Of a stretch of DNA of 64,000 bases, positions 3,442 to 57,400 are shown in pieces. The position numbers and the translations under genes were made by a program. The stretch lies in contig CAISWQ010000072.1 of NCBI GenBank assembly GCA_903889245.1, forward strand, positions 1 to 64,000, read 5' to 3'. The stretch comes from an uncultured Lentisphaerota bacterium. GTDB taxonomy: Bacteria; Verrucomicrobiota; Kiritimatiellia; CAIQIC01. The notes beneath the pieces were generated by a model. The model saw nothing but the letters and a program-made list of their open reading frames with translations. It ran no database searches and was not told where the DNA came from. Numbering within the stretch: position 1 is the stretch's first letter; the number at the start of each line of letters is the position of its first letter.

Positions 3442-3487
3442 TTCCAAGCCTTGGAAATCTGCCGGAGATTTTTTCCAAGCCTTGGAA
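3442..3487. repeat. Palindrome array A, 2 units of TTCCAA-N3-TTGGAA
   Basis: Units 3442-3456 and 3473-3487, spacing 31 bp. Confidence 0.95.
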
Positions 3488-3550
3488 AACTGCACCCCAC
3501 CCCATCAGGCCGGCTTCGCTTCTTGTTCTTCCGCGCCGAGGGCTGCGGGA
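3480..3550 (-). pseudogene. Remnant of a sulfatase 3' end plus downstream flank
   Basis: About 70-bp near-identity to 4921-4990, including PQPSARKNKKR coding end and CCTTGGAAA; frame shifted. Confidence 0.75.
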
Positions 3551-3618
3551 TAAGATCATCACCGTCCGGTGGGCTTGACTCCAAACTGCGGTTCGCAGAG
3601 TATCAACCGCAGACAGGA

Positions 3619-4845
3619 ATGAAAATGTTCACTTCACGTATGTCAAAAATCGAAGTTACCACAGCCCTCATGGCGCTCATGTTGGGCTCGTCTGCCTTGG
3701 TGGCCACCGCAGCCGACGGCGTTCCCTATGAGAACTGGACGTCCGGTGTAAAAAAACACGATGTCGTTTCCCTGCCAGGCCGGCATGTGATGCATGCCTA
3801 CTACGCCCTCGATACCGAAAGCCCGGATGGCCGGTATGTTCTCTACTACACATCCGGAACCAAATCCGGCGAGGAAGGTGACCTGCGCATTCTGGAACGC
3901 AAGACCGGCAAAGAGACCATCATCGCGGAGCACATCCAAACGGAAGATGCGCACCGCGCCGCGTGTCAGCAATGGGCCAACGGGGGCAAGACCATTGTCT
4001 ATCATGATTGCCGCGGCGGGAAATGGGTTGTCGTCGCCGTTGATCTGGCCACACTGAAGCAGAAAGTCCTGGCCGAAGACCGCCAGCTCGGGTTCGGCGC
4101 CACCGCCAGTATTTATGCGCCGCTTTACGGCTGCCACTGGAACCCGGGCCCCCATCGCGACCTGGAATTCGTAAACGTCGAGACGGGTGAGATCAAGACG
4201 ATCCTGACCGCCGACGCCATCGTCGGGAAGTATGCCGAGTGGACCCAAAAGCGTTTTGGCGGTGCGCGCCTATCCGTCTGCTTCCCGTGGATCAGCCCCG
4301 ATGGGAAGAAGGTCTTCTGCAAGGTGGGCAAGCCCGGCTGGGGGAACAGCTACCGGGGTATGCACGTCAGCGACCGCGATGGCAAGGTCATCTACGACAT
4401 CGAAAAGAGGGAGTTCACCCGTCTTTCCATGAATTGGGGGCATCCCTCGTGGACGCCCGATTCGACCGCGATTTTTGAAAAGGGGAACTTCGCGATGAAC
4501 GTCACGACGGGCAAAACCGTCCTCTTTGGGCGCTCGCCAACCGACCATCCGACGTTGGCGCCCGATGGGAAAGTGTTTGCCTCGGACGGGAAGGAATCGA
4601 AGAAAGAGAAAGAGTGGGTCGTTATCGTTGGCAAGGCGGTGCCCGCCAAGTCGAGCCAGGATTCGGCCGCCTATACAATCATAGATAAGTTTGACAATAA
4701 CCAGGGGGCAGCGTCGTGGCGCCGCAATCATCCGCATCCGGTTTTCAGCGCGGACGGAAAACGCCTCTACTACAACGTGAATGACGGTCCGTGGACGCGG
4801 CTGGTCGTGGCGGAAGCGGGCGACGGCACTTCTCACCAGCCTTAG
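3619..4845 (+). CDS. Secreted TolB-like beta-propeller protein, possibly oligogalacturonate lyase-like (PL22)
   Basis: Signal peptide; repeated SPDGR/SPDGKK/APDGK/SADGKR blade motifs. Confidence 0.55.
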   Translation: MKMFTSRMSKIEVTTALMALMLGSSALVATAADGVPYENWTSGVKKHDVVSLPGRHVMHAYYALDTESPDGRYVLYYTSGTKSGEEGDLRILERKTGKETIIAEHIQTEDAHRAACQQWANGGKTIVYHDCRGGKWVVVAVDLATLKQKVLAEDRQLGFGATASIYAPLYGCHWNPGPHRDLEFVNVETGEIKTILTADAIVGKYAEWTQKRFGGARLSVCFPWISPDGKKVFCKVGKPGWGNSYRGMHVSDRDGKVIYDIEKREFTRLSMNWGHPSWTPDSTAIFEKGNFAMNVTTGKTVLFGRSPTDHPTLAPDGKVFASDGKESKKEKEWVVIVGKAVPAKSSQDSAAYTIIDKFDNNQGAASWRRNHPHPVFSADGKRLYYNVNDGPWTRLVVAEAGDGTSHQP

Positions 4846-4944
4846 GCCTCGATTCATTGGGGAGCCGCGAGCCCCAGCGCCTTCCCTCTCTCCATCAACC
4901 GGGCTGTGCTGCCTCCGGAACCTTGGAAACGGCTCCCTACCCCA

Positions 4945-7190: not shown

Positions 7191-7212
7191 TGCTTCGGGG
7201 ATGGAAGCAAAC

Positions 7213-11973: not shown

Positions 11974-12012
11974 TTCGATGTTGGATGTTCGGTGTTCGAT
12001 GTTCGATGTTCG
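11974..12012. repeat. Heptamer tandem repeat (TTCGATG)n
   Basis: TTCGATG TTGGATG TTCGGTG TTCGATG TTCGATG TTCG. Confidence 0.93.
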
Positions 12013-12081: not shown

Positions 12082-12158
12082 TTCCAGGGCTTGGAAAAAA
12101 GCTCGCGGATTTTTCCAAGCCTTGGAAGAATCCGCCGCGCATGTTCCAGGCCTTGGAA
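12082..12158. repeat. Palindrome array B, 3 units
   Basis: Units 12082-12096, 12113-12127, 12144-12158, spacing 31 and 31. Confidence 0.95.
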
Positions 12159-13765: not shown

Positions 13766-13813
13766 TTCCCAAGCTCTGGAAAAAAGGCTGGTGTCGTTTT
13801 CCAATCCTTGGAA
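13766..13813. repeat. Palindrome array C, 2 units (first degenerate)
   Basis: TTCCCAAGCTCTGGAA 13766-13781 and TTCCAATCCTTGGAA 13799-13813. Confidence 0.8.
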
Positions 13814-13839: not shown

Positions 13840-16362
13840 ATGAAAAAAACAGCGTGGCTGGTGTGTGGCGTGGTGGCGATGGCGGCAACGGCGGCGGAGC
13901 GGTTCCCGTTCGTCATTCCCGGCGATGACGCGACGAAGACGGCGACGGATTTCTCGTCGCTGAACGCGCGGCCGGCGGGCGCGGATGGGTTCGTGCGGAT
14001 CAAGGACGGTCATTTTTTCACTGACGCCGGGCGGCTGCGCATCTGGGGCGTGAATACCTGCTTCAGCGCGAACTTCCCCTCGCACGCGGAGGCCGGGGCG
14101 GCGGCCGCGCACATGGCGAAGCTGGGCATCAACGCCGTGCGGATGCACCACCACGAGACGGGCACGCCGCCGCGCGGCCTGCTCGCGCCGCCGAAGGACG
14201 GGAAGCGCATGATGGACCCGGAGATGCTCGACCGGCAGGACTACTTCCTCGACCAGCTTCACCAGCACGGCATCTACGCGAACCTGAATCTGCACGTCGG
14301 CCGCGCGATGCTGGCGGCGGAAGGGTTCGCGGTCCAGAGCGAGGAGGCGCTGCGCGATTTCCGCTACGACAAGTTCCTGCTCTACTTCGAGCCGCGCATC
14401 CGGGCGCAGTTCAAGGAATTCTGCCGCGCCTACCTCGGCCATGTGAATCCCTACCGCAAGCTGCGGCGCGCGGATGATCCCGGCATCGCGGTCGTGGAGA
14501 TCACCAACGAGAACAGCTTCAGTACGCTCGGCCTTTATGTGGCCCAGAAGCTGCCGGAACCCTATCGCGCGGAATTCCTGAAGCAGTGGAACGCGTGGCT
14601 GGCGCAGCGTTATGGCAACACGGAGACGCTGAAGAAGGCGTGGGGCGCAGGCTTCGAGCCGCCGGGCGAGCAGGTCGCCAAGCTCGACGCGACCGCCGGC
14701 AAGCTCGGCGCGTGGCGCTTCAACATGGGCCGCGATGGCAAGCTGCGCGCCGAGTTCAACCAGGCCGGGCCGAACGCGGCGACGCCCGCGGTCCACGTGG
14801 CGATTGACAAACCCTGCACCGGCGTCGGCAACGAGTTGCTGCTGCCCAATCTCAAGCTGGAGGCGGGGAGAATTTATACGCTCGCCTTCGACGTGCGCGC
14901 GGCGACGCCGCGGCGGTTGCACTACGATGTGTCGCGCCAAGGCAAGCCCGACTGGAGTTCGGCCGGGTTGAACGCCGACGAGACCATCGGCAAACAGTGG
15001 CAGCATATCGAGCGCAGCTTCCGCGTCACCGACGCGCCCGAGGGCGGCTTGCGCATCGCGTTCAAGTTCCCCGGTGCGGGCGACCTCTGGTTCGCCGGCC
15101 TGCAACTGCGGCGCGGCGGCCCGCTGCACATCATCGCCGAGGACCAGTCGCTGGAGGCGCGCAATATCGGCTTCCCCTCCTCCTCCAGCGCGCAGGCGCT
15201 GACCGACCTCAAGGAATTCATGGTCGGCGTCGAGACCGATTTCATCCGCGACCTGACGGCGTTCCTCAAGCGGGACGTGGGCGTAAAGGTGCCGATCACG
15301 GCGTCGCAGATCACCTATCATGGCGCGCCGATTGTCGCCGCGACGTGCGACTACGTGGATATCCACGCCTACTGGCAGCATCCGCACTTCCCCGGCAAGC
15401 CGTGGGATCCGGAGAACTGGACCGTGGCCAACACGCCGATGGAGCGCGAGCCGGTGAAGAACTGCATGAGCGAGCGCGCCACGTGGCGCATCTTCGGCCG
15501 CCCGTTCACGATGTCGGAGTGGAACATCCCCGCGCCGCACGATGGCGCGGCCTCGTGCGTCCCCTTCGGCGCGCTCTACTGCGCGCTGCAGGATTGGGAC
15601 GGCGTCTTCTTCTTCGACTACAACTCCGACAACAAACACTGGAACGCCGAGGGCATCACCGGCTTCTTCTCCTTCGTCGGCCACACGCACAAGCTGGCGG
15701 GCATGGCGGCGTTTGCCAACATGTATCGGCGCGGCGATCTCGCGCCGCTCGCCGGCCAGGTCGCCGGCGGGCTGACCAACCGCCCCGACGCCGCGCTGGC
15801 CTTCACGAAGTTGATCGGCATCAGCGCCGGCGCAGCCGCCGAAACCACCACGCTGGAAAAAACCCAGCGGCTCGCCTCGCCCGATGGCAACGTCGTGTGG
15901 GATGCGACCGACGCCGCGCGGCCGTGGGTGCAGGTCAACGCGCCCGCCTCGCGCGCCGCGTGGGGCATGCTCGCCAACCGCAAACTCGAACTCGGCTCAC
16001 TCAAGCTCGAGATCGGCGCGGCCGAGCGCGACTACGGCGTCCTCTGCCTGACCAGCCTCGACGGCCTGCCGCTGGAAAAATCCAAGCACATGCTGCTCGC
16101 GGCCTTCGGCACGGCGGAAAATTCCGGCATGGTGTGGAACGAGAAGCGCACGAGCGTCGGCCGCAAGTGGGGCAAGGGCCCGGCGCTGATGAACGGCATC
16201 ACGGCCACTGTTTCGCTCGGCAGCCGCATCACATCCGTGCAGGCGCTCGACCCGACCGGCAAGCCGCAGGGCGCCGTGCAGGTGGAGCGCACCGGCGCCG
16301 GCTCGCGCTGGAGCATCGGCCCGGAGCACCGCACGATCTGGTACGAAATCCATGCGCACTGA
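13840..16362 (+). CDS. Secreted GH5/GH-A-like glycoside hydrolase with carbohydrate-binding-like insert
   Basis: Signal peptide MKKTAWLVCGVVAMAATAAE; FFTDAGRLRIWGVNTCFSANFP; VEITNENSF; FTMSEWNIP. Confidence 0.65.
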   Translation: MKKTAWLVCGVVAMAATAAERFPFVIPGDDATKTATDFSSLNARPAGADGFVRIKDGHFFTDAGRLRIWGVNTCFSANFPSHAEAGAAAAHMAKLGINAVRMHHHETGTPPRGLLAPPKDGKRMMDPEMLDRQDYFLDQLHQHGIYANLNLHVGRAMLAAEGFAVQSEEALRDFRYDKFLLYFEPRIRAQFKEFCRAYLGHVNPYRKLRRADDPGIAVVEITNENSFSTLGLYVAQKLPEPYRAEFLKQWNAWLAQRYGNTETLKKAWGAGFEPPGEQVAKLDATAGKLGAWRFNMGRDGKLRAEFNQAGPNAATPAVHVAIDKPCTGVGNELLLPNLKLEAGRIYTLAFDVRAATPRRLHYDVSRQGKPDWSSAGLNADETIGKQWQHIERSFRVTDAPEGGLRIAFKFPGAGDLWFAGLQLRRGGPLHIIAEDQSLEARNIGFPSSSSAQALTDLKEFMVGVETDFIRDLTAFLKRDVGVKVPITASQITYHGAPIVAATCDYVDIHAYWQHPHFPGKPWDPENWTVANTPMEREPVKNCMSERATWRIFGRPFTMSEWNIPAPHDGAASCVPFGALYCALQDWDGVFFFDYNSDNKHWNAEGITGFFSFVGHTHKLAGMAAFANMYRRGDLAPLAGQVAGGLTNRPDAALAFTKLIGISAGAAAETTTLEKTQRLASPDGNVVWDATDAARPWVQVNAPASRAAWGMLANRKLELGSLKLEIGAAERDYGVLCLTSLDGLPLEKSKHMLLAAFGTAENSGMVWNEKRTSVGRKWGKGPALMNGITATVSLGSRITSVQALDPTGKPQGAVQVERTGAGSRWSIGPEHRTIWYEIHAH

Positions 16363-17310: not shown

Positions 17311-17365
17311 TTCCAAGCCTTGGAAAAACAAACGGCGGATTTTCCAAGGGTTGGAAAATCCGCCG
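17311..17365. repeat. Palindrome array D, 2 units; second extended to a 15-bp stem
   Basis: 17311-17325 and 17342-17356, spacing 31; CGGCGGATTTTCCAA-GGG-TTGGAAAATCCGCCG at 17333-17365. Confidence 0.95.
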
Positions 17366-24086: not shown

Positions 24087-24132
24087 TCTGGCGAACATCC
24101 CGGACTTTTAAAAGTCCGGGATGTTCGCCAGA
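24087..24132. repeat. Perfect 46-bp palindrome with no loop
   Basis: TCTGGCGAACATCCCGGACTTTT|AAAAGTCCGGGATGTTCGCCAGA read directly; 28 bp after the PL8 stop. Confidence 0.97.
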
Positions 24133-24138: not shown

Positions 24139-24267
24139 TTCCAAGCTTGGAAATTTTCACGCGGTTTTTTCCAAGGCTTGGAAAATGTGATGGCAATACG
24201 TTCCAATCCTTGGAAAACTCCGGCCCGCACTTTTCCAAGCCCGCTGCTGCGGGGCAAGTCCTTGGAA
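24139..24267. repeat. Palindrome array E, 4 units, last interrupted by 20 bp
   Basis: 24139-24152, 24169-24183, 24201-24215, half-sites 24233-24239 and 24261-24267. Confidence 0.93.
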
Positions 24268-26009: not shown

Positions 26010-26067
26010 CTCCAAGGATTGGAAAAGCAAACGGGCCGGTTTTCCAAGCATTGGAAAACCGGCCCGT
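26010..26067. repeat. Palindrome array F, 2 units; second extended to a 17-bp stem
   Basis: 26010-26024 and 26042-26056; ACGGGCCGGTTTTCCAA-GCA-TTGGAAAACCGGCCCGT at 26031-26067. Confidence 0.95.
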
Positions 26068-28831: not shown

Positions 28832-28908
28832 TTCCAGAGTTTGGAAACCGGGGGAGCTGGTTTTCCCAGGATGGGAAATTCCCGCCGCCATTTTTCCAAG
28901 GCTTGGAA
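28832..28908. repeat. Palindrome array G, 3 units
   Basis: 28832-28846, 28863-28877 (TTCCCAGGATGGGAA), 28894-28908, spacing 31 and 31. Confidence 0.95.
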
Positions 28909-28927
28909 AACGCCAAGCGCCTGTAAG

Positions 28928-32880: not shown

Positions 32881-32933
32881 CGCCTGCCAAAAGCAAGGGT
32901 TCTGGCGGCCCCCGGGGACGAGGAACCCGATCC

Positions 32934-33719: not shown

Positions 33720-34492
33720 GCGGTCCTCGTCGTTTTCTGTCCACGCAATTCCTGGCGCAACTTCAGCAGGCCAATGAACTGTTGCAGGCAGATGACAAAC
33801 AGTTTTGACATGAAGAAAATAGTGGTACTGCCGATCTTGCGCTCATAATGCGGCACCGGTACTTCCAGAATCTTGCAACCTGCGTAGTGGGCGCGCACCA
33901 CAAACTCGGCGGTAAAGAATGACATGTACTTGACCTGCGGAGCCAGGTTGGCCAGGACCTCCCTGCGGATGAGCCGGAACCCCGTGTCCATGTCGCGATA
34001 TTTGACCCCGAAGAACCAGCGCAACAGGCAGTTGTAGCCCCACGAGAGAAAAACACGGTAGAAGGGATCTTTCCTCGGCGACTTCATCCCCAAGATCACG
34101 TCGTACTCACGCCGCCACGGTTCCAGGCGCCAGAAATCAATGGCGGCAAATTGGTAATCCGAGTCCACCACGAACACCCAAGGTTTGGTGGCATGGGCCA
34201 CGGCATCAATCACCGCCTGTTGATAGCCCTTGCGTTCATTGCTGCAGTACAACCTGATGGGCAGTTCCGCCGCCAAACGCTCCAGCACCACCTTGGTATC
34301 GTCTGTGCTGCCATCCTCCGCCACCACCACCTCCAGATCCGTTACACGGGGCTGAATCTCCGAGATGTAGTTGCGCAGGGTCTGCTCAATGATGAACGAC
34401 TCATTATACACGGGGAAAACAAGCGAGATGCCTCCCAACACCGGATCAGCCGGGCCGCGCGGTGGTGAGGTATCGAACACGGGCTTCTTCAT
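33716..34492 (-). CDS. Glycosyltransferase, GT2 (DPM-like)
   Basis: ISLVFPVYNESFIIEQTL, VVAEDGSTDDT, VVDSDYQF. Confidence 0.85.
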   Translation of the reverse strand: MKKPVFDTSPPRGPADPVLGGISLVFPVYNESFIIEQTLRNYISEIQPRVTDLEVVVAEDGSTDDTKVVLERLAAELPIRLYCSNERKGYQQAVIDAVAHATKPWVFVVDSDYQFAAIDFWRLEPWRREYDVILGMKSPRKDPFYRVFLSWGYNCLLRWFFGVKYRDMDTGFRLIRREVLANLAPQVKYMSFFTAEFVVRAHYAGCKILEVPVPHYERKIGSTTIFFMSKLFVICLQQFIGLLKLRQELRGQKTTRTA

Positions 34493-34505
34493 GATGTGTA
34501 CTCCT

Positions 34506-36038: not shown

Positions 36039-36086
36039 GACTATCCCCACTTCCCCTGAGCCCCCCCCCCTGCACATCCGGCCTGC

Positions 36087-37244
36087 TCACTGCAACTCAC
36101 TGGACACGCGGGCATAGACCGCGCGCCAACATTCCACAAATTTTTCCTCGGAAAATTGAGTCACCGCTTCACGCGCCCGGCCTCCCATGTCACGGCGCTC
36201 CTCCGGTGACAAAGCCAGAAAACGGCGCAAGGCCGCCGTCACCCCATCAGCACTGCGTTCCATCAACAGGCCGTTCTGCCCATCCACCAGATAATCCTCC
36301 ACGCCGTTGAGTGGTGTAGAGAGTACCGGCAACCCTGATGCGGCTGCCTCCAAGACCGAGGTGGGAGACGCCTCGTAGAATGAGGGGAACAGAAAGGCAT
36401 CACTTTCCCACAGATAGGGCCGGATATCTTTCAACGTTTCGCAAAAATACACGCGGTCACGAATACCCATGTCCACGCAGAGTTTGGTATACCGGGCGAT
36501 CAAATTGCTCCGTCCGCCGACAACCATCAGGCCGATGTTTTGATTGGCCAGCATTTGCAGGGCCTGCATCGCCAGCAGCAGACCTTTGCGTTCATAGTGT
36601 CCCAAGGCCACGAAACAGAACACCACACACTCTGCCGGGATTTGCCACTGTAGCCGCACCGTACCATGCCAACCGGTTGGCCGCTGGAATCTGGCCACAT
36701 TGACCGGATTGGGCACCACCACCACCTTGTGCGCCTGCCGCGGATAGAGCAGTTCTATCTCGCGCCGCAAGCCGCTCGAAGGGACTACGATGCACAAGGC
36801 CCGGCGGAATGTCGCCGGCTCCAAGAGGGCGCGCAACCCGTGATCCAACCGGCGCGCTACACCAAAGAGGCCCTTTTTCCCGGGCAACAGCGGCCAGACT
36901 TTCTGCACATAATAACCATGGCAGAACGGCGAATAGATGATACCTCGCCGGCCCAGATTGCTCTCGGCCGACTGCACCACGTCGTATCGTTTCCCGCTGA
37001 ATAAGCGATGCAGGTCGTAATAGAGATTCGCCAGGAGACGATAGGCCACAAACAAGAGGAGCAGGGGCCGGCGCACAGGAACCCGCAGGCGCTCCCAGTT
37101 GACTGGCACAGATGAGAGTTGCTCGAAACTGATGGAGAAAACCGTTACCTCATGCTCCTTGGCCAGCATGGGGGCAAGCAGTTGGAGCTTCTTGCCCATC
37201 GGGGTAACACCATCAAGAAAATAATCAAAGATAGCTATTTTCAT
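36087..37244 (-). CDS. Glycosyltransferase, GT4
   Basis: MKIAIFDYFLDGVTP...ALGHYERKGLLLAMQAL...VLSTPLNGVEDYLVDGQNGLL; paralog of 41022-42218. Confidence 0.88.
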   Translation of the reverse strand: MKIAIFDYFLDGVTPMGKKLQLLAPMLAKEHEVTVFSISFEQLSSVPVNWERLRVPVRRPLLLLFVAYRLLANLYYDLHRLFSGKRYDVVQSAESNLGRRGIIYSPFCHGYYVQKVWPLLPGKKGLFGVARRLDHGLRALLEPATFRRALCIVVPSSGLRREIELLYPRQAHKVVVVPNPVNVARFQRPTGWHGTVRLQWQIPAECVVFCFVALGHYERKGLLLAMQALQMLANQNIGLMVVGGRSNLIARYTKLCVDMGIRDRVYFCETLKDIRPYLWESDAFLFPSFYEASPTSVLEAAASGLPVLSTPLNGVEDYLVDGQNGLLMERSADGVTAALRRFLALSPEERRDMGGRAREAVTQFSEEKFVECWRAVYARVSSELQ

Positions 37245-37296
37245 ACTTCCTTCCACACACTTTTCGATTGATCGTAGCTTCTGGCCAGCCATCATT

Positions 37297-38076
37297 TCAC
37301 GGAAAATAACAGCCTGCGAACATCTTAAGCACCAGCCGCAAGGGGCGGGCCACCAGACGTTTGACCTGGCGGGCCAGATCCGCCTCCACAGGGTAGTAAC
37401 GACGGCGAATAGTCATGATCTCTGCGAACATCTCCTCTGTCAGCATATTGGTCTTCTGGCCGGGATGGACCCGGAAACGTGACCAGAGATTTCGAACCTT
37501 GTGCAAGGTGGTGACCTCGGCGAACCGGATAAAGAGATCGCCATCCATGTTCAAGTTGAACGCCGGATTGAGCCCTCCCACCCGTTCATACAACTCGCGG
37601 CGCCAGAAAGTGGACGAGGCAGCAATATAATTATGATCGTTGAACCACAAAAAACGGTGGAAACGGAGTTGCCGTTGTACACGCAGACGCGCACCGGACT
37701 CGGTCATCAGGATGCAATCCCCCGTCACCACCTGGGCAGATGGGTTCCGTTGAAAATAGTCATTCACCTCTGTCAGCGCACGCGGCGCCAATTCATCGTC
37801 GGCATTGATCCAGCACTGGATGTCACCGGTTGACCGCTGGAAACCCTTGATCAAGGCATCGGTCTGGCCCTTGTCCGGCTCACTCACCCAGCAGGTGATC
37901 CGGTCGCTGTATTTCTTGATGAGATCCACACTGCCATCGGAGGAACCGCCGTCTATGACGATGTATTCCAGATGGGGATAGTCCTGTGTCACCACGCTAC
38001 GCAAGCAGCCCTCCAGAAAGCGGGCGCTGTTATAACACACCGTCACCACGGTGATCTTCAGTGGTTTAGTTGCCAT
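37297..38076 (-). CDS. Glycosyltransferase, GT2
   Basis: ITVVTVCYNSARFLEGCLRSV, YPHLEYIVIDGGSSDGSVDLIKKY; paralog of 42215-42991. Confidence 0.9.
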   Translation of the reverse strand: MATKPLKITVVTVCYNSARFLEGCLRSVVTQDYPHLEYIVIDGGSSDGSVDLIKKYSDRITCWVSEPDKGQTDALIKGFQRSTGDIQCWINADDELAPRALTEVNDYFQRNPSAQVVTGDCILMTESGARLRVQRQLRFHRFLWFNDHNYIAASSTFWRRELYERVGGLNPAFNLNMDGDLFIRFAEVTTLHKVRNLWSRFRVHPGQKTNMLTEEMFAEIMTIRRRYYPVEADLARQVKRLVARPLRLVLKMFAGCYFP

Positions 38077-39970
38077 CGCGCAAACCTGTACCCGCAAGCC
38101 ATTCTTGGAACTGGCATATCGCCCAAAGCTTGAAGGCATGCCACTGGCTGCCAGACAGACAGCCCTGCCAGATGGCCTGCACCGCCACCGGGTGCAAATA
38201 GCCCTCACAGCGAAGACGTTCTTCGGCGATGCACGCCTGTACCCAGTCCCGGAGCGGCCCTGTCAACCAGCGTTGCAGCGGGATGTTGAAGCCCATTTTG
38301 GGCCGCTCGAACAGGACCGCAGGCATGAATTCCCGCAGACAAGCGCGCAGCAGGAGCTTCCCCTTCTCCGTATTAACCTTTAGTGACAAGGGCAGGCTCC
38401 AGGCGATGTTGAACAACTCAACATCATCCGTGAAAGGCGCGCGTACCTCCAGCGAGGTCGCCATGCTGGCGCGATCCACCTTGGTCAGCACGGCATTGGG
38501 CAGATAATTATGGGTATCGTCACACATCTTGTTTTCCACCACATCCCTGCCGCAACGCGTCAGGGGGAGGCGAGCCTCTTGGGGTGAAGCCCCCAGCACC
38601 ATAGAACTGCCCAAGGCAGAACCGACGTTCTGCAGCAAAGCCTGCTCACGCCGGCCTGCGAGTAAACGCCACAGGGTCTGCGCCTGTTCCCTCGCGGAGG
38701 CCGGCAACAACCACGCCGCCATCCGGCTGTCGCAGAAACGACCCGCCCCATAAAAGCAACCCTCTGGCCACCAACCCAACCAGCGCTGCAGCCGCGCGAG
38801 CTGTGAATAATACCGGTAGCCGCCGAACAGTTCGTCGCCACCATCACCGGAGAGTGCCACAGTGACATGTGCGCGTGTCAATCTGGACAGCAGGAAGGTG
38901 GGGATGGCGGAAGGGTCGGCAAAAGGTTCGCCAAACATGCGCGGCAGCAGGGGCAAGACTTGCAGGGCATCCTGTTCTGTGGCCATTAGCCGGGTATGCT
39001 CCGTGCCCAGATGCCGGGCAATCTCCCCGGCATAGGCCGATTCATCGAACTCCTGCTCCTGAAAACCGATGGTGAACGTGCGCACTTTTCGCGTACTGGC
39101 CTTGACCATGTGCGCGACGACCAGTGAGGAGTCAATGCCACCGGAGAGGAAAGCGCCCAAGGGGACATCAGCTATCATCATGCGTTGGACAGCCCGATGC
39201 AGACCTGCCTGCAGCAGAGCCACGCCCTCGGCCGCTGCGCACCGCCGGGAGCGGATCGGTGCCAGTTCCTCTATACGTCGCGCGGCATCCCAGTATTTCT
39301 TCAGGGAAGCCGGTTCGCTGCGGCGCAAGCTTTCGCGCGTGACCACCATCACACTGCCGGGCGGCAGTTTGAAAACGCCCTCATAGATGGTCAGCGGCGC
39401 CGGCACATTCTGATATTGGAAATATTGCGCCAGCGCCCTGCGGGAAATTTGCCGCCCGGAAACAGCCGCGAAGGGTGTCGTCAATTCCGAGGAGAAATAG
39501 ACAGCCTGTCCCTTGAGCTGATAATAGAGCGGCTTGACGCCCAACCGGTCCCGGAACAGGTACAGCCGTTCCTCCTGAACATCCCAAACACCAGCGGCGA
39601 ACATGCCGATCAATTGGGGCAGCGTCCCGGTCACCCCCCACGCCTCGAAAGCTGCCAACAACACCTCGGTATCCGAGGTGCCCTTGAAGGCAAAGCCTCT
39701 GGCCGCCAACTGCTGGCGCAAATCAGTAAAATTATAGACCTCACCATTATAGGCCATGACATATCGCCCGGAGGGTGAAGTCATGGGCTGCTTTCCCGTG
39801 GGGGTGAGGTCCATGATAGCCAGGCGCCGGTGGCCCAAACCCACACTCCGGTCTGCGGCGTACCACGCGCCTTCGTCATCAGGCCCGCGATGAAGCAAGG
39901 CGCGCGTCAGCGTTTGCAGCCCAAGCTGCGGCAATGGCGTCACACCAAAGTATCCACACAGACCACACAT
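38066..39970 (-). CDS. asnB: Asparagine synthase (glutamine-hydrolysing)
   Basis: MCGLCGYFG nucleophile Cys; LLHRGPDDEG; AFLSGGIDSSLVVAH. Confidence 0.92.
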   Translation of the reverse strand: MCGLCGYFGVTPLPQLGLQTLTRALLHRGPDDEGAWYAADRSVGLGHRRLAIMDLTPTGKQPMTSPSGRYVMAYNGEVYNFTDLRQQLAARGFAFKGTSDTEVLLAAFEAWGVTGTLPQLIGMFAAGVWDVQEERLYLFRDRLGVKPLYYQLKGQAVYFSSELTTPFAAVSGRQISRRALAQYFQYQNVPAPLTIYEGVFKLPPGSVMVVTRESLRRSEPASLKKYWDAARRIEELAPIRSRRCAAAEGVALLQAGLHRAVQRMMIADVPLGAFLSGGIDSSLVVAHMVKASTRKVRTFTIGFQEQEFDESAYAGEIARHLGTEHTRLMATEQDALQVLPLLPRMFGEPFADPSAIPTFLLSRLTRAHVTVALSGDGGDELFGGYRYYSQLARLQRWLGWWPEGCFYGAGRFCDSRMAAWLLPASAREQAQTLWRLLAGRREQALLQNVGSALGSSMVLGASPQEARLPLTRCGRDVVENKMCDDTHNYLPNAVLTKVDRASMATSLEVRAPFTDDVELFNIAWSLPLSLKVNTEKGKLLLRACLREFMPAVLFERPKMGFNIPLQRWLTGPLRDWVQACIAEERLRCEGYLHPVAVQAIWQGCLSGSQWHAFKLWAICQFQEWLAGTGLRDGN

Positions 39971-40047
39971 ACATTGCTCAACAGATCACACCGCTCAAAC
40001 CGGAACACGGTGGCGCTGGGTTATAGGCGACTTGCTGTTCCCGTGCG

Positions 40048-40956
40048 TTAGCGAGGCTTGCGCGCCAGCACGATCAATTCATGCCCCGCCATATCAAACA
40101 TCGGCCGCTCATCCAGCAAAGCCGGCGACACTTGTACGCCCGCGGGCAGACGCAGTTGATAATCCTTGATGGAGCGACTAAGCAGAAGCAAGGGCCAGGC
40201 GGCGAATTGTTGCCGCCAAAAAACATCATCGAGATAATTACAGTGCTTGCGCCCCCAGAGTAGATGCCACCAGGCCTCATCCACCCGGCGAAAGGCATCC
40301 GACCCATTGGGAGTCATGGCGAAGAAAAGCCCGCCAGGTTTTAAGCGTTGACAGGCCTGTTCCAATAAACCCTGCAAGCTGGCGACATGCTCCAGGACAT
40401 GCGTTGAAAAAAACACATCCACCTGCTCCCCTGGAGGTAGCTGGTCCACTCCGGAATAAACGGTCAGCCCCAATTTCTCGCGGGCAAAAGCGGCGCGTGG
40501 CTGGCTCAACTCAATGGACCTCACCTGGTAGCCGGCTTGGCGGAATTGCCATGAGCCGTACCCCCAGTTGCACCCAAAATCAACAATGACGCCATCCCGC
40601 GGCACCTCCAATTGCGCAAACAGACGCAGCCATGCCTCAAAACTATTATACGTCCTGAAATTCGCCTGCTTGAAACTCTCGAGCTCCGCATCAGAAGGCA
40701 GGATGGTGACCGCCGGCTCGTGATATAGGGATTGATAGAAATGAACACTTCTTTCCAGCGGATCAAAGGGGCGACGGCTCATCAGCTTGCACTGCGGGCA
40801 ACGCACCAGCGAGAACAGGAGAAAACGCCTGTCCACCGTGGCGCCGCCCTGGCCGCCACATGAAGGACAGGCCATATGCCGGTTCAAGAGTACATCTTGC
40901 AGGCACTGCAGGAACAACAACCCCTTGGACCATTGCCTGTTAATTTTTTTTCGCAT
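40048..40956 (-). CDS. Class I SAM-dependent methyltransferase with Zn-ribbon-like N-terminus
   Basis: CPSCGGQGG...CPQCKLMSRRPF; VIVDFGCNWGYGSWQF. Confidence 0.8.
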   Translation of the reverse strand: MRKKINRQWSKGLLFLQCLQDVLLNRHMACPSCGGQGGATVDRRFLLFSLVRCPQCKLMSRRPFDPLERSVHFYQSLYHEPAVTILPSDAELESFKQANFRTYNSFEAWLRLFAQLEVPRDGVIVDFGCNWGYGSWQFRQAGYQVRSIELSQPRAAFAREKLGLTVYSGVDQLPPGEQVDVFFSTHVLEHVASLQGLLEQACQRLKPGGLFFAMTPNGSDAFRRVDEAWWHLLWGRKHCNYLDDVFWRQQFAAWPLLLLSRSIKDYQLRLPAGVQVSPALLDERPMFDMAGHELIVLARKPR

Positions 40957-41021
40957 ATGTAGCTCCGTTATGATTCACCAGCCACCTGTCGTGTATTAGA
41001 ACCGCTGCCGACGATCCGGCT

Positions 41022-42218
41022 TCATGTTGTTGCCTGCGGGGTGGTCCCTTGCACAACCGGTGCAATGTCCGCGTAGAGTTTTTTCCAGGCCGCGATGAAA
41101 TTACTCTCCGTATAGGCTTGGACCGCTTCCCGCGCACACTGGCCCATGCCGGCGCGTTCAACTGGCGACAGGCAGAGGAAGTGCCGTACGACCTTCGCGA
41201 TACCCGCAGCCTCCCGCGGCAGCAGCAGACCGTTTTGGCCATCGCGCAAGAACTCTTCCACGCCGTTCAAAGGCGTGGAGAGAATCGGCACTCCTGCCGC
41301 AGCCGCTTCCAAGGCCACGGTGGGCAAGACTTCGTAGTAGGAGGGCAACAGCAAGGCCTCACTGGCCCACAAATAAGGACGTATATCCGGCTGTCTGCCC
41401 ACAAAACGGAACAAACGGCCCAGCCCGGCGGCTTCAACACGCTGGCGATAGACTTGCACCAAGCCAGGCTGGCCACCTACGACCAGGATGGTGAACGGCT
41501 CCGGACTTTCCCCCTTGAACTCTTGCACAGCCTGCATCAACAGCGGCAGACCTTTGCGCTCGAAATGCCCCAAAGCGATAAAACAGAAAAGACGTCCATC
41601 AGCCCTCAAACCCAACCCCTGCCGCAGACTGTCACCCGCGAAACTGGCGGGTCGCTGCATGCGTTCCAGATTGATGGGATTGTGAATCAGCCGAATACGC
41701 CCCTTTAACCAGGGATATTCCTGCTCCAGTTCCCTTTGCAGACCCAGGGAGGGCACCACCACCCAGCGGGCCCGGCGATAGGCCGCTGGTTCACAGAGAG
41801 CGCGCAACCGATGATCCCAGCCCCGCGCCAACGTGCGCAACGTGCGATGCCCGCGCACGGCCACGCGCCACTCATGGCGCAGGAAATAGCGATGGCAAAA
41901 ATGGGCATGGACCACATCCCCAAAGCGCGTGATGCTTTCGATGCTCTGGCAGAGATCGAACTGCCTGTTGCGGACATGTTTGTCCCACAGATAGCGCAGA
42001 GACGCCAGGCTGCGATAAATCAGGAAAAGCCACAACAGCGGAGAGCGACCCGTGGTGGGCACCCTGACCCAACGAATACGTTTATCGGTTTGCAAGGCAC
42101 AGGTGGCAGCATACACGGTGAACTGGTGTTCACCACCAAGGCCCTGAAGCAGCACCTGATTGATATGCCCGATGGCGTTGGAGCCATCCACAAAGTAATC
42201 AAACACGGCGATTCTCAT
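41022..42218 (-). CDS. Glycosyltransferase, GT4
   Basis: MRIAVFDYFVDGSNAIGH...ALGHFERKGLPLLMQAV...ILSTPLNGVEEFLRDGQNGLLLP. Confidence 0.88.
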   Translation of the reverse strand: MRIAVFDYFVDGSNAIGHINQVLLQGLGGEHQFTVYAATCALQTDKRIRWVRVPTTGRSPLLWLFLIYRSLASLRYLWDKHVRNRQFDLCQSIESITRFGDVVHAHFCHRYFLRHEWRVAVRGHRTLRTLARGWDHRLRALCEPAAYRRARWVVVPSLGLQRELEQEYPWLKGRIRLIHNPINLERMQRPASFAGDSLRQGLGLRADGRLFCFIALGHFERKGLPLLMQAVQEFKGESPEPFTILVVGGQPGLVQVYRQRVEAAGLGRLFRFVGRQPDIRPYLWASEALLLPSYYEVLPTVALEAAAAGVPILSTPLNGVEEFLRDGQNGLLLPREAAGIAKVVRHFLCLSPVERAGMGQCAREAVQAYTESNFIAAWKKLYADIAPVVQGTTPQATT

Positions 42219-42991
42219 GGCCCATAGCACCCGCTGATCAACTTCAGCATCCAACGCAGCGGCCGGGCCACCAGGCGCTTCAGGCGTTGTGAACCCGGCC
42301 ACTCCTGCCCCAGATGGCGCCTCCGGATCACCTCGTTTTCCACCGCCAGACGCTCCACCAGACGACTGGTCTTTTGCTGCGGGTAGACCCGGAACCGCGA
42401 CCAGAGTCTCCGGACGTGATACAGGCGGGTCACCTGCGCAAAGCGAATGAAGAGATCGCCGTCCATGTTCACCTGGAAGAAAGGATCCAGACCACCCACT
42501 TGCGCATAGAGTTCACGCCGCCAGAAGGTGGAGGACTGGGCAATGTAATTATGATCATTGAACCAGAGAAAGGCCATAAAGCGAATCTGGCGTTGTACCC
42601 GCCAGAAGGAACCATCCTCCCGGATCAAGGTCGCGTCCCCCGTCACCACTTGTCGTTCCGGATGTCTGGCAAAATAGTCCGCCACGTCCCGGAGCGCACC
42701 CGGCTCCAACAAATCATCGGCGTTAATCCAGCAGAAGATGTCGCCACGGGCGCGCCGAAAGCCTTTGATCAACGCATCGGTCTGCCCTTGATCGGGTTCG
42801 CTGACCCAATAGGCAAGGCGATCGGCATATTTCTTGATAAGGTCTACGCTGCCATCCGTGGAGCCACCATCTATGACGATATACTCAAGATGCGGATAGT
42901 CTTGTTTCAGCACACTCTGGAGGCATTGCTCCAGATGTGGCCTGTGATTGAAGTTCACCGTAACAATGGAAATGCGCGGCAAGGTCATCAT
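42215..42991 (-). CDS. Glycosyltransferase, GT2
   Basis: ISIVTVNFNHRPHLEQCLQSVLKQDYPHLEYIVIDGGSTDGSVDLIKKY. Confidence 0.9.
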   Translation of the reverse strand: MMTLPRISIVTVNFNHRPHLEQCLQSVLKQDYPHLEYIVIDGGSTDGSVDLIKKYADRLAYWVSEPDQGQTDALIKGFRRARGDIFCWINADDLLEPGALRDVADYFARHPERQVVTGDATLIREDGSFWRVQRQIRFMAFLWFNDHNYIAQSSTFWRRELYAQVGGLDPFFQVNMDGDLFIRFAQVTRLYHVRRLWSRFRVYPQQKTSRLVERLAVENEVIRRRHLGQEWPGSQRLKRLVARPLRWMLKLISGCYGP

Positions 42992-43036
42992 TCAACCCGC
43001 GGGAGCATAGGCCTGCCGACGCGACGGGATGGAGCC

Positions 43037-44197
43037 CTATGGGTGCCCATGGAGAATTGTGCGGTAAACATCCAGATGCGCCGCAGCCACCCGTTCGGGG
43101 GCCATATAGTCCACGATCTTTCCTTGGGCCGATTTGGCTTCAGGCGTACTCCCGCTGGCGAGCACGGCCAGAACTTTCTCGGCCAGATCAGCAGCATGCC
43201 CGTTTTGGAAAACATGTCCATTCCCAAACCGATGGATATTTTCCGCCATCGCGGTTTCGCTGGAAACCACACAGGGAGTGCCCACCAGCAACGCCTCAAT
43301 GACTTGATTCCCGAACATCTCTTCACGCGAGGGGGCCACGAGAACCGCCGCGCTGGCTATCGCCCGTGCCACCTCCAGATGGGGGAGGCGTCCCGAAAAC
43401 TCGCAGCGCGAGCCCATAAGGCCCACCAATCCAGCTTCCACCTTGCGAATATAGTCTGAGCCGCCCCGCCCCGCCCCAATGACTTGCAGGGAGACATCCT
43501 CCTGAACACCCTGTATCCGGGGCAGGGCCTCGAGCACAAGGTCGAGCCCCTTGCGCTCATCCAAGGTGCCCACAAAAATCAGCTTATTTTTCTTCCGTGG
43601 CAGAGACGGGAGCGCGGCAATCGCCGGATCAAAAGTGTTGGGAATGCGATGCAGCACCAGATGGGGGTACAGTTGTTGCAGCTTTTCTGCGATGTAAGCG
43701 CTCTTGGCAATGACATGTCGCGCGCGCGACAGCGCCCGCCACTCCAAGAATTCAATCACCTTTTGACGATGCCACCACGGTAGCTTCAACAGGGAATTGA
43801 TGATGCCATAGAGGCCTTGGGCCGTCACAACATAGGGCAGGCCCGAACGTTGTGCCGCCAGCACATGGGCCCCTTCCGTGCCATGCGCATGGACGATGTC
43901 CGGTTGCAACCGGCGCAAGCGGGCGGCGAGCCGGGAGGTTTCATAAAACAGCAAGGTTTTGGCGCGATATTTCGCCGGGCATCGCAAGTAATGCACGGGG
44001 ATGCCATCCCACTCTGCCTCAAAATCCGTCAAGCTGCCCGGCACATTGACCAACAATTCAGGCTGCAGCGAGGTGTGGGCCTTCTGTGCGCGCGCCAAGT
44101 CCAACACCCAGTGTCCCGGATGAAATTGCTTGTGCAACCGCAGCGCATCAGGATGCTGGGGTGGCAGGGGGACGCCACAGACATGAACCACTTTCAT
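43037..44197 (-). CDS. Glycosyltransferase, GT4
   Basis: DIVHAHGTEGAHVLAA, FVGTLDERKGLDLVLEAL, EEMFGNQVIEALLVGTPCVVS. Confidence 0.88.
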   Translation of the reverse strand: MKVVHVCGVPLPPQHPDALRLHKQFHPGHWVLDLARAQKAHTSLQPELLVNVPGSLTDFEAEWDGIPVHYLRCPAKYRAKTLLFYETSRLAARLRRLQPDIVHAHGTEGAHVLAAQRSGLPYVVTAQGLYGIINSLLKLPWWHRQKVIEFLEWRALSRARHVIAKSAYIAEKLQQLYPHLVLHRIPNTFDPAIAALPSLPRKKNKLIFVGTLDERKGLDLVLEALPRIQGVQEDVSLQVIGAGRGGSDYIRKVEAGLVGLMGSRCEFSGRLPHLEVARAIASAAVLVAPSREEMFGNQVIEALLVGTPCVVSSETAMAENIHRFGNGHVFQNGHAADLAEKVLAVLASGSTPEAKSAQGKIVDYMAPERVAAAHLDVYRTILHGHP

Positions 44198-44225
44198 ACC
44201 GTCTAATTCCTGCGCGTGGCGTTGA

Positions 44226-45788
44226 CTAATCCTGTTGAAGAGGGCGGAGCATGACCGGCCCGCGGGCAGGAGTCAGGGCAGCATTGGCGGGCAGCGCCGG
44301 TTGCGGTTGAGCGCCCTCCATCACGGCAGACTTGGAAAGCAGAAACAAAAAACCATTCATGACCGCCATCTGGGCGCACAGGATGTAGATCGAGGGACCG
44401 GAACCATTGGTGGCCATCTGCACAAAGTTGGCCACAAACGTGGCGCCCAACGCCGCCGCGAACATCTTCTGGGGCGATGGCGGCAGTCGTCGGACCTTAC
44501 TGATAAACAGGCCCAGCAAACTCAACATACTGATGACCATGGCCACGGCCGCGGGGAGGCCGCAAAACGAAGCCATGGTCAGAATACCATCGTGATAACC
44601 GCCGGAAAGAGCCAGCCCTTCATAGAGCGCATCCTGCCGGGATTGGCCGACCGTCGAGACGGCCGCCACGATGTCATCAAAGCTATACGAAAAACCACGC
44701 CCAAAGATCGGATGGCGTTTGATGTCCTCCCACGCCATCCGGGCCAGACGGCTGCGCCACTCGTTCTCGAAGCCCATTTCGCCCAAGGAATATCGGTTGC
44801 GCAGATCATAACTCACAGAGGTGGGCAAGACTGTGCTCAACGTGCGGGCCATGGACTGCGGAATTTTTTCTGGTTGCATCAGGAAGAAAATAAACATCAA
44901 CGGCAGGGCGCATAAGGCCACAGCCATGAACTGGCGGATTTGCTTATAGCAATACACCATGACGAATATGGAGGCCATGGCGGCAAAAGGCGCAGCGCGG
45001 CGGGCGGAGATGAAGGAAAACAGCAAAATCAAACCCGTGATGAGAAAAGTGAGCACCTTGAACTTGGGCAGCTTTGACTGTGCGCTTTTGTCAATAAAGT
45101 ACACCAGGATGAAAGCCGCCAAGGTGAACATGGGGACGGTGTAGAGATTCAACTGTTCATGGCCATAGATCAAGCGCTTCACCATTTCGAGGCCCAGAGG
45201 GAAGTAGGCGATGGCGCAAACCAAAAGCGCTGCGCGATAATTTTTCCGGGCATCCCACGGCAGAGCGCACATCTTGGAACCTACGAAATAAATCACCATC
45301 GCCAACAGGATGGCCACGGCCTCGCCGGCGCCACCGACACCACCCAGTCGGGCCGAACCGGGCCGGTCAATGATGAGGCGAGTGATCACCACCACGGCCG
45401 TGATCGCCAGCATGAGGGAGGGGAAATTCCGATGAACCCCTTCTGATTCCTTTTTGGTCAACGCATAGGTGAGCAGATAGATGCTCATCAGGAACAAACC
45501 GGCCAACATGCCCACGGTCAAGCGGTCGAACAAGGGGATCGGGATGATATAGGTCACCATCGCCTGCGCACCCACCAGCAAGCCAATCCGATAGGCGGAC
45601 AGGGAATTGATGGCTATGACCGTAATGATGGCGGCCAGAGGCACCAACGTCAGCATCGTGCTCAAGCCAAAACCATCATGCAGCAGCGTCTTCATCACGA
45701 AGAGCACCACCAACACATACAGCAAGGCTGTAACCAACAAGCCCCAACGCAAATTCATAGCATCAAATCCTTCTCCAACACCGCCCAC
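44226..45788 (-). CDS. O-antigen ligase/polymerase-like (Wzy/WaaL-type) membrane protein
   Basis: Polytopic membrane protein; HPIFGRGFSYSFDDI and YHDGILTMASFCGL motifs in GT locus. Confidence 0.7.
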   Translation of the reverse strand: MGGVGEGFDAMNLRWGLLVTALLYVLVVLFVMKTLLHDGFGLSTMLTLVPLAAIITVIAINSLSAYRIGLLVGAQAMVTYIIPIPLFDRLTVGMLAGLFLMSIYLLTYALTKKESEGVHRNFPSLMLAITAVVVITRLIIDRPGSARLGGVGGAGEAVAILLAMVIYFVGSKMCALPWDARKNYRAALLVCAIAYFPLGLEMVKRLIYGHEQLNLYTVPMFTLAAFILVYFIDKSAQSKLPKFKVLTFLITGLILLFSFISARRAAPFAAMASIFVMVYCYKQIRQFMAVALCALPLMFIFFLMQPEKIPQSMARTLSTVLPTSVSYDLRNRYSLGEMGFENEWRSRLARMAWEDIKRHPIFGRGFSYSFDDIVAAVSTVGQSRQDALYEGLALSGGYHDGILTMASFCGLPAAVAMVISMLSLLGLFISKVRRLPPSPQKMFAAALGATFVANFVQMATNGSGPSIYILCAQMAVMNGFLFLLSKSAVMEGAQPQPALPANAALTPARGPVMLRPLQQD

Positions 45789-45803
45789 GAACGGCGCGGG
45801 ACA

Positions 45804-46976
45804 CTAGCACGATTCCTCCCGCCCGCCAATGCCCAGCACCTGTTGATAGACCCGCTCCGTTTCCCGCGCCACACGGACCGGATGCAGATAGGCGCTGACT
45901 TGCTCCCTCGCCATCTCCGCCCCGGCCCCATCAGGCCGCTGCAACAAGTCCTCCAGGCGGGCGGCCAAATCAGTCGCGTCACCATTGCGAAAGATGAGGC
46001 CATGGCCGAACCGCTGGATGTTTTCCGCCAGCGCCGTACCGCTGGAGACCACACAGGGTGTCCGCAGCAGCAAGGCCTCGATCACCTGGTTGCCGAACAT
46101 TTCCCACAACGAGGGTGCCACCAAGACCGCGGACTTGGCGACGTGTTCCAAGACCTGCACCCAAGGCAACTGTCCCAGAATCTGCAAGCGCGCCCCCAGG
46201 GTGGCGCGCAAGACTTGCTCCTGCCCGCGCCAGTAGGCCGAGTTCACCTCCGGGCCACCCCCGATCATGCGCAAGGTGAGCTGGGGGAAGCGCTCCGCCA
46301 GTTGCGCCACGGCCTGTGCCAGCAGATGCACGCCCTTCCACGGGCTCATGGTGCCCACAAAGACCAATGAAAAAGGCTCCCTGGCCACCGCCGGCAGAGC
46401 CAAACAAGCGGGGTCGTAGGTGTTCGGTATCTGGAACAGCCGCAAATGCGGGAAACGCTGCCGCAGCAACTCCATCACAAAACCGCTCTTGGCAATCGCA
46501 AACTGCGTCCGGCGCAAGGTGTAGTTTTCCAGCCAGGCGATAAACGCCTGCCGGCCATACCAGGGTGTTTTGAGGATGGGGTTCAGATAACTGAACAGCC
46601 CCTGTACGGTGACCACATGCGGCAGGCGAGTGCGCCGCGCCGCGAGCAGATAGGCGCCCTCCGTGCCATGCGCATGGACCACGTCGGGCCGCAAGGCGCA
46701 CGTGGCCGCCGCCATCCGGACGCTTTCCTCAAAGAAGAAAGAAGCGGCGCGCAACCGTGACCGGCAGCGGATGAACAGGCACGGGATGCCCTCGATCTCC
46801 GTCTCAAAATCCCGGGCACTGCCCGGTACGTTGAACACGATGGCGGGTTCCATCGCGGCATGTGCCTTTTGAGCCTTGGCCAGGTCCAGTACCCAGCGGC
46901 CGGGGTGCGCCCACACCCGGCCACTGTCCGGATGCCCCGCCGGCAGCGGCACCCCGCCGATATGGACGCATTTCAA
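45804..46976 (-). CDS. Glycosyltransferase, GT4
   Basis: LKCVHIGGVPLPAGHPDS...DVVHAHGTEGAYLLAA...WEMFGNQVIEALLLRTPCVVSSGTA; paralog of 43037; start TTG 46976 or GTG 47000. Confidence 0.87.
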   Translation of the reverse strand: MKCVHIGGVPLPAGHPDSGRVWAHPGRWVLDLAKAQKAHAAMEPAIVFNVPGSARDFETEIEGIPCLFIRCRSRLRAASFFFEESVRMAAATCALRPDVVHAHGTEGAYLLAARRTRLPHVVTVQGLFSYLNPILKTPWYGRQAFIAWLENYTLRRTQFAIAKSGFVMELLRQRFPHLRLFQIPNTYDPACLALPAVAREPFSLVFVGTMSPWKGVHLLAQAVAQLAERFPQLTLRMIGGGPEVNSAYWRGQEQVLRATLGARLQILGQLPWVQVLEHVAKSAVLVAPSLWEMFGNQVIEALLLRTPCVVSSGTALAENIQRFGHGLIFRNGDATDLAARLEDLLQRPDGAGAEMAREQVSAYLHPVRVARETERVYQQVLGIGGREESC

Positions 46977-47007
46977 CACCGACAGGCGCCCCTTCCCCAC
47001 ACTGGCT

Positions 47008-47117
47008 TTCCAAGGCCTAGGAAAAAGCCCCCACGCTTTTCCAAGGCTTGGAAATTCCCGTCACTACCTTGTCCAAGCCTTGGAAAAAACCGTGACTTCA
47101 TTCTCCAATCCCAGGAA
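47008..47117. repeat. Palindrome array H, 4 units (outer two degenerate)
   Basis: 47008-47023, 47039-47053, 47071-47085, 47103-47117. Confidence 0.9.
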
Positions 47118-55913: not shown

Positions 55914-55971
55914 GCTGAAGTTTCCAAGGCCGAAAAATGAACCCTTTCCAAAACCTCGGGGTGCGTCTCTT

Positions 55972-57279
55972 TCAGTTCAAGCGCTTGAAGCCGGTGTGCG
56001 CAAGCGGCCCTGTGAGCAGCCGCGTCAGAGGGCCGGCGCGTTGCGCCGCAGTCAGCAAGCCAAAGACTTCCTCCACCTGCTGGAGATAGGCAGCGACGAT
56101 CTCCGGCGTGTGCGCCAGCATCGGATAGAATCCCGCGCCGGCCAGATAGCCGCGCTCCAGCATCAGTTGCGTGAACAGCGTGCGCACCGCCAGACCATCC
56201 TCCCCCTCCACGGCGAAATGGCTCAACGGCGGAATGCCGCCAGCGTGCAGCGCCAGCCCAGTCCGCTGCGCCGCGCTCGCCCATCCCGCCTGCACTTGGG
56301 AGCCGATCGCGTTCAGGTGCCGCTCGACGCCGAGCCGGCGGTACTTGCGCAGCGTCGCCAGCGCCGCCGCCGGGCCGACACGTTCCGTCCAGTAGGTGCT
56401 GCTGATGAAACTTTTTTGCGCCGCCTCCATCACCGCCGCGCGGCCGATGACCGCGCCCATGGGATGGCCATTGCTGATCGCCTTGGCCAGCACCGCCAGA
56501 TCCGGTTCGACGCCCAAGGTCATGTGCGAACCGCCGCAATAGAGACGGAAACCCGCCGAGACTTCATCGAAAATCAGGACCGCACCGCAGCGGTCCGCCT
56601 GCGCGCGGCAGAACTTCAGGAACTCCACATCGGCCTCATTACGGATCGGCTCCATCATGATCGCGGCCAGTTCGGAGCCGTGCTCGCGCACGATAGTCTC
56701 AAGTTGCGCGCGCTCGCCGAAGTTGAACGGCAGCGCCGTACCGCGCAACACGCGCGGTACGCCCGCCGGTTCGAGGCCGGGCAGCAGATGGCCGTCGAGC
56801 GCGCCTTCCGCGCCAAGATTCGCGGCGAGATACCAGTCGTTCCAACCGTGGTAACCGCAGAAGGCGACCTTGTCGCGGCCGGTCGCGGCGCGCGCAATAC
56901 GGACGGCGACCATGCAACTCTCGCCGCCGCAGCGGGCGTAGCGGACACGCTCGGCCCACGGATGCAGTGCGCACAGCAGTTCCGCCAGCTCGACCTCCTC
57001 CGGGCAGTTGAGCACCGTCATGCTGCCGGCCTGGACCGCGGCCACGACCGCGGCGGTGACGTCGGGGTCGGCATAGCCCAGCGTACAGGCCCCGACCCCG
57101 CAGTGCGTCATGTCAATCAACCGGCGACCGTCGAGGTCCACGACCTCGCAACCCTGTGCGCGCTGATAGTAGGCGGGCCATTGCTCCGGCAGGAACATCT
57201 CCGGCCGCTTGGACAGCAGTTGCGTGCCGCCGGGGATGAGCGTCCGCGCCCGTTGATAAAGTTGTTGTCCTGTGTTCAT
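55972..57279 (-). CDS. Class III PLP aminotransferase (GSA aminomutase-like)
   Basis: GYADPDVTAAVVAAVQAGS, RCGGESCMVAVRIARAATGRDKVAFCGYHGWND, LIFDEVSAGFR, LAKAISNGHPMGAVIG. Confidence 0.88.
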   Translation of the reverse strand: MNTGQQLYQRARTLIPGGTQLLSKRPEMFLPEQWPAYYQRAQGCEVVDLDGRRLIDMTHCGVGACTLGYADPDVTAAVVAAVQAGSMTVLNCPEEVELAELLCALHPWAERVRYARCGGESCMVAVRIARAATGRDKVAFCGYHGWNDWYLAANLGAEGALDGHLLPGLEPAGVPRVLRGTALPFNFGERAQLETIVREHGSELAAIMMEPIRNEADVEFLKFCRAQADRCGAVLIFDEVSAGFRLYCGGSHMTLGVEPDLAVLAKAISNGHPMGAVIGRAAVMEAAQKSFISSTYWTERVGPAAALATLRKYRRLGVERHLNAIGSQVQAGWASAAQRTGLALHAGGIPPLSHFAVEGEDGLAVRTLFTQLMLERGYLAGAGFYPMLAHTPEIVAAYLQQVEEVFGLLTAAQRAGPLTRLLTGPLAHTGFKRLN

Positions 57280-57291
57280 TTCGTCTCCGGT

Positions 57292-57400
57292 TTCCAAGGG
57301 TTGAAAAATAAGATCCGCTGTTTTCCAAACCTTGGAAGATTTCCGTGCGGGATTTTCCGAGGCTTGGAAAATTTTGCAGCGCTTTTTCCAAGCCTTGGAA
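57292..57400. repeat. Palindrome array I, 4 units
   Basis: 57292-57306, 57323-57337, 57355-57369, 57386-57400; spacing 31, 32, 31. Confidence 0.95.

Follow-up and report, generated by a model that had tools for sequence, protein, structure and literature searches.

Results

Nine palindrome arrays in the window

The window, i.e. the entire stretch of 64,000 nucleotides that was analysed, belongs to a draft genome of 5.26 Mb in 125 contigs (G000) and carries nine arrays of the palindrome TTCCAA-N3-TTGGAA, surrounded by genes that are varied according to their Pfam domains and share no functional theme (Table 1). Genes were called with a simple home-made caller and their starts are approximate. 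Allowing for up to two mismatches, we found 25 matches where 1.3 were expected (0/100 shuffles), and 23 of these fall within the nine arrays. The remaining two, at 26983 and 56840, contain two mismatches each, lie within coding sequence and are probably chance matches. A few additional units are more degenerate, namely at 47008 (one base longer) and 24231 (interrupted by an insertion).

Table 1. Palindrome arrays and associated features, with their positions in the window. Numbers in brackets are centre-to-centre distances in base pairs.
Feature	Position	Strand	Description
Array A	3442..3487	.	2 units (31); divergent gap; from motif search and gene calls
Array B	12082..12158	.	3 units (31, 31), ahead of ATG 12186; same position in G115
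Array C	13767..13813	.	2 units (32), the first degenerate
Array D	17311..17356	.	2 units (31); convergent genes; same position in G115 and in G062
Intrinsic-terminator-like hairpin	17333..17365	minus	around second unit of D: CGGCGGATTTTCCAA-GGG-TTGGAAAATCCGCCG
Array E	24139..24215	.	3 units, the first with a 2-base core; kept in at least one relative
Array E, fourth unit	about 24231-24261		an insertion of about 21 bp apparently separates the two arms
Array F	26010..26056	.	2 units (32); convergent genes; exact position kept in G062
Array G	28832..28908	.	3 units (31, 31), the middle one symmetrically changed (TTCCCA/TGGGAA)
Array H	47008..47085	.	3 units, the first with a 4-base core
Array I	57292..57400	.	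4 units (31, 32, 31)

In the orthologous gaps of two relatives of the same genus, G115 and G062 (the latter called the sister species), the positions of arrays B, D, E and F are kept in at least one of the two, with different spacers and varying numbers of units; no array was found at the place orthologous to C in G115. Array B lies inside a mechanical open reading frame, yet alignment with the G115 orthologue places it upstream of the start codon. Arrays D and F, predicted to lie between convergent genes, do so and in addition overlap intrinsic terminators. In both, the second unit makes up the tip of the hairpin. The hairpin at D follows a minus-strand semialdehyde-dehydrogenase gene (Pfam) and has its T-rich tract on that strand; the hairpin at F is kept in G115 with the motif gone.

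Directly ahead of array E we noted a long palindrome, GGCGAACATCCCGGACTTTTAAAAGTCCGGGATGTTCGCC (24090-24129), which is probably a terminator. An unrelated second repeat, TTCGATGTTGGATGTTCG, occurs with near copies at 11974-12012, and G115 contains many similar stretches. The region between arrays G and H (28908-47008) is a polysaccharide gene cluster with glycosyltransferase, asparagine synthase and O-antigen ligase domains, perhaps recently acquired. The arrays had been thought to divide the polysaccharide locus into blocks; it is simply array-free between G and H, over about 18-18.2 kb.

Genome-wide copy number and helical phasing

The nine arrays of the original prediction turned out to be a small part of a far larger set. 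The whole-genome scan yielded 2,308 units with one mismatch at most (about 2,300 in total) against 14 for the reversed control, and 1,339 exact TTCCAA-N3-TTGGAA sites against none. The logo of the unit, TTTTCCAAGSCTTGGAAAA, is a symmetric palindrome, in which positions 4-5 from the centre hardly vary from CC and GG.

The predicted distance of 31 or 32 bp between unit centres holds throughout the genome. Among 143 arrays with 353 units in a 714-kb sample of G000, the 210 steps comprise 138 of 31 bp, 61 of 32 bp and 11 others. The 199 steps of 31 or 32 bp average 31.3 bp, equal to three turns of 10.4 bp, which supports the proposal that the dyads lie on one face of the helix, as would suit a dimeric binder. 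Arrays comprise 2-7 phased units. The standard element of G062 is a pair exactly 32 bp apart (163/190 steps), and steps of 22 and 30/31 bp are found in the genomes G087 and G093 of other clades. The spacers are not conserved: in G062 they carry near-zero information except for A/T adjoining the units, and identity between arrays is 0.36-0.39, being no higher within arrays. The GC core (TCCGCCG or CGGCGG) formerly ascribed to them thus holds no sequence that is conserved. The central base tends to be G in a left unit and C in a right one, and we found no clear rule that relates this base to a step of 31 or 32 bp.

Position relative to genes

Gene-level work covered about 14% of G000 and about 46% of G062 (1.18 Mb). 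The original prediction linked most arrays to start codons. We observed, among gaps of 100-200 bp in G000, that convergent gaps are most often occupied (10/11), followed by tandem (39/84) and divergent gaps (7/28), so that sites are not concentrated where promoters lie. Several array-free convergent gaps contain ordinary terminators. In tandem gaps the median distance from the stop codon to the start of the array is 26 nt in G000 and 17 nt in G062. A minority of array ends align with promoters: in G000 the outermost TTGGAA stands 16-18 nt before TANNNT at 12 of 80 start-facing ends (about one expected) and at none of 60 stop-facing ends, thus some units overlap a −35 box; the alignment is weaker in G062.

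All nine arrays in the window are intergenic by gene calls and orthology, as predicted. Genome-wide this does not hold, with 36 multi-unit arrays inside called genes in G062, several of them spanned by homology to other species and some coinciding with an in-frame insertion that the homologue lacks. Four adjacent genes of about 510 residues in G062 (C66, about 96.9-110.8 kb) each carry an array near codons 20-37, close to where a likely signal peptide ends.

Even spacing along the chromosome

The main new result is that the arrays are evenly spaced along the chromosome. When array placement was permuted 600 times between gaps matched for type and length class, no permutation was as regular as the observed order (0/600 in each genome): the coefficient of variation (CV) of inter-array distances was 0.67 versus 0.83 ± 0.06 in G062 and 0.48 versus 0.79 ± 0.08 in G000, the result covering two species of one genus, draft genomes and a simple gene caller. 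A separate simulation agreed, and the mean inter-array distance is about 2.9 kb in G062 and about 5 kb in G000. Terminator-like hairpins in the same gaps are spaced in a random-like manner (CV 0.94 versus 0.91 in G062 and 0.99 versus 0.89 in G000). Furthermore, in convergent, divergent and tandem gaps alike, those that bear an array have the next array farther off (p from 0.03 to 1e-19). The multi-unit in-gene arrays of G062 lie in array-poor stretches (1,619 versus 807 bp, p = 6e-8); such placement was not seen for the in-gene arrays of G000 (n = 10).

Distribution and dialects

The sample consisted of drafts and metagenome-assembled genomes together with a closed genome of 3.88 Mb (G079; 3,882,676 bp). 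A generic pair, TTCC-N7-GGAA with 16 or 17 bp between units, occurs in 54 of 289 genomes of the phylum. Within the class, roughly half of the genomes sampled contain it, while Verrucomicrobiota genomes of other classes have at most one match each, and exact TTCCAA sites are abundant in same-class genomes only. Records of genomes with the pair are labelled Kiritimatiellae, Kiritimatiellales and also Lentisphaerae and Verrucomicrobia; we infer that the class is Kiritimatiellia. This mostly uncultured group of Verrucomicrobiota thus holds hundreds to more than 1,000 such sites per genome. In the Kiritimatiellota literature consulted, largely papers outside subscription, we found no mention of the motif or of such repeats.

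At the same spacing the arms occur in dialects, TTCCAA, TTCCAY in parts of family f3 (22 and 31 bp) and TTCCAT in one genome (G044), and the reversed control of this search gave zero in all genomes except one. Between families the arms persist while cores and spacers change. Phasing is not universal, since family f9 (G157 and G226) has more than 1,100 exact TTCCAA sites and only about 40 phased pairs (1,177 sites and 40 pairs in G157) and apparently relies mainly on single sites. No neighbour gene is common to the residual arrays of array-poor genomes. Three phage contigs from IMG/VR (L109, L110 and L112), two with Mu-like transposase genes as judged by eye, also contain arrays, hence phages of these hosts acquire them; in L110 four units about 31 bp apart (14358-14466) lie within a repetitive tail-fibre-like gene.

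Candidate binding proteins

Three regulator families were tested as the binder, and the results support none of them. Lrp/AsnC was present in every array genome examined and also in most array-free ones, and its recognition helix differs between genomes that share the TTCCAA dialect. A GbsR/CudC-like MarR protein gave a strong match in 23 of 26 TTCCAA genomes, an enrichment partly by construction as the profile was built from array-bearing genomes; it had no match in four array-bearing f3 genomes (G065, G087, G101 and G223), while congeners without sites have a version of it with an almost identical DNA-binding region. In G000 its gene is cut by the contig end (C72:72967-73242), about 9 kb past the window. 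PadR had no match in the f5 genomes searched. A helix-turn-helix screen of about 46% of G062 and about 14% of G000 gave few regulators (about eight recognisable in the 1.18 Mb of G062), and the binder may therefore be encoded outside the DNA sampled. Among congeners whose Lrp and GbsR are near-identical, a genome can have more than 1,000 sites or almost none, which suggests that the function of the arrays is dispensable or quickly replaced.

Discussion

Units on one face of the helix, with symmetric invariant contacts and with free spacers and cores, suggest cooperative binding by a dimer. The even kilobase spacing over all gap types and genes moreover implies a role per chromosome length and not per gene, such as nucleoid organisation or anchoring. 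Our data point to a hitherto undescribed genome-wide DNA-binding system and not to ordinary gene regulation. We therefore favour, with a probability of about 0.48, the reading that the arrays are duplex-DNA sites for an abundant dimeric protein of the class, which binds cooperatively on one helix face and has a chromosome-scale role. The even spacing accordingly lends support to the original preference for a global or nucleoid-type factor over a specific regulon, a role that remains a proposed one. More tentatively, the arrays may constitute an undescribed class-wide chromosome organiser, in which a dimer nucleates on clusters that selection keeps at near-regular kilobase distances, even within genes, and in which recognition drifts from family to family as dialects.

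In such a system one dimer would read each palindrome of 15-19 bp, contacting TTCC/GGAA with A/T on either side, and dimers on neighbouring units, on the same helix face and two or three turns apart, would bind cooperatively. Nucleation clusters would be maintained at regular intervals of about 3-5 kb and placed where sequence constraint is lowest, i.e. past stop codons, above promoters or, if no gap is available, in tolerant parts of genes. The chromosome-scale role could be, for example, nucleoid organisation or anchoring.

DNA uptake is the main rival, although we consider it unlikely: as with the DUS/USS of Neisseriaceae and Pasteurellaceae, a competence receptor would recognise self DNA by the arrays, and these would owe their spread to recombination and biased uptake. 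Uptake sequences are likewise known to be numerous and evenly spaced, to differ as dialects between clades and to occur within genes; their even spacing, described by Karlin, is reported in PMC1939737 and their dialects in PMC3630211. In addition, ComEC is found in nearly all genomes examined, array-rich ones included, and the apparent island at 28.9-47.0 kb of the window lacks arrays. Nevertheless, known uptake sequences are short and non-palindromic (PMC1939737), whereas the arrays are symmetric, and their phasing, with 2-7 units at two- and three-turn spacing, is not what biased uptake acting on single sites would predict. ComEC moreover fails to separate array-rich from array-free genomes, and G115 has no ComEC match. 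From sequence alone, an architectural role and DNA uptake are not distinguishable.

Still less probable is a role in transcriptional insulation or global regulation, in which bound protein would act as a roadblock separating transcription units and would sometimes occlude the −35 box. The short distance to upstream stop codons, the preference for convergent gaps, the −35 alignment at start-facing ends and the ordinary terminators in array-free convergent gaps would all fit this explanation, but arrays are also found in divergent gaps and inside genes, and neighbouring genes share no functional theme. The evenness of the arrays furthermore exceeds the effect of gap type. Since terminators, which also mark unit ends, are unevenly spaced, transcription-unit structure alone does not readily explain the pattern. 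Placement close to stop codons fits sequence tolerance whichever of these readings applies.

That the arrays are REP/BIME elements, or another mobile repeat family dispersed by a transposase, is very improbable. REP elements are likewise short palindromes near 3' ends, occurring as singlets and dimers (PMC3733652), but no position in the flanks consistently bears a GTAG/CGTC tag (shared by 7/582 flanks at most), spacers and flanks have no shared sequence, and arms are retained between families while cores and spacers change. Because the spacers are unrelated, the arrays are not mobile repeats. A MITE or IS-derived repeat, in which copies would share sequence across the whole element, was rejected as well: whole-element likeness is absent, with spacer identity at 0.36-0.39 and spacer information near zero.

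An RNA-level element, be it terminators or the phased intercistronic hairpin series offered earlier as an alternative, is scarcely credible: the palindrome can pair and arrays D and F are located in terminator-like hairpins, but in tandem-gap arrays single mismatches that preserve G-U pairing in the sense strand are as frequent as their mirror images (27 versus 27; strand symmetry of substitution was seen in 83 single-mismatch units), double mismatches are compensated in only 3 of 30, extended stems occur in few units only, an Rfam search gave no match and arrays also lie within coding sequence. As mismatches have neither strand nor compensatory bias, we regard the arrays as duplex-DNA sites and not RNA hairpins. 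An intrinsic-terminator family (GC-rich stem plus T-run) was also discarded, as the few units with an extended stem lie mostly in convergent gaps and terminators are unevenly spaced.

If the chromosome-scale binding system is real, a whole bacterial class possesses a regular, sequence-encoded chromosome ruler with its helical phasing written in the DNA, and whether bacteria have sequence-defined regular nucleoid anchors becomes a directly testable question. Were the uptake explanation true, an uptake-type signature made of phased palindromes would exist far outside Neisseriaceae and Pasteurellaceae. Under either reading, the arrays are a strong marker by which these bacteria, most of them uncultured, can be binned and traced.

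Among known systems, the DUS/USS uptake sequences resemble the arrays in being high-copy, clade-specific motifs (hundreds to thousands of copies) with dialects round a fixed core, evenly spaced and tolerated in genes. They are short, non-palindromic and directional, whereas the arrays have a symmetric logo and consist of 15-19-bp palindromes set on the same helix face (22/31/32 bp). REP/BIME elements with their RAYT are also intergenic palindromes beside stop codons that form dimers and clusters, but the arrays have no GTAG/CGTC tag or common spacer and display strict helical phasing and even spacing. Phased operators are used by cooperative regulators, with NtrC sites three turns and ArgR boxes two turns apart; these are likewise dimer-sized palindromes on one helix face, but the arrays extend genome-wide over thousands of units without promoter linkage. 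MatP/matS, Noc and CdbA (PMC7156744) are nucleoid-associated or chromosome-organising systems with dispersed sites. The arrays share with these three dispersed sites and a protein with a chromosome-scale role, which for the arrays is proposed, but they are far more numerous, their units are phased in tandem and they recur regularly every 3-5 kb.
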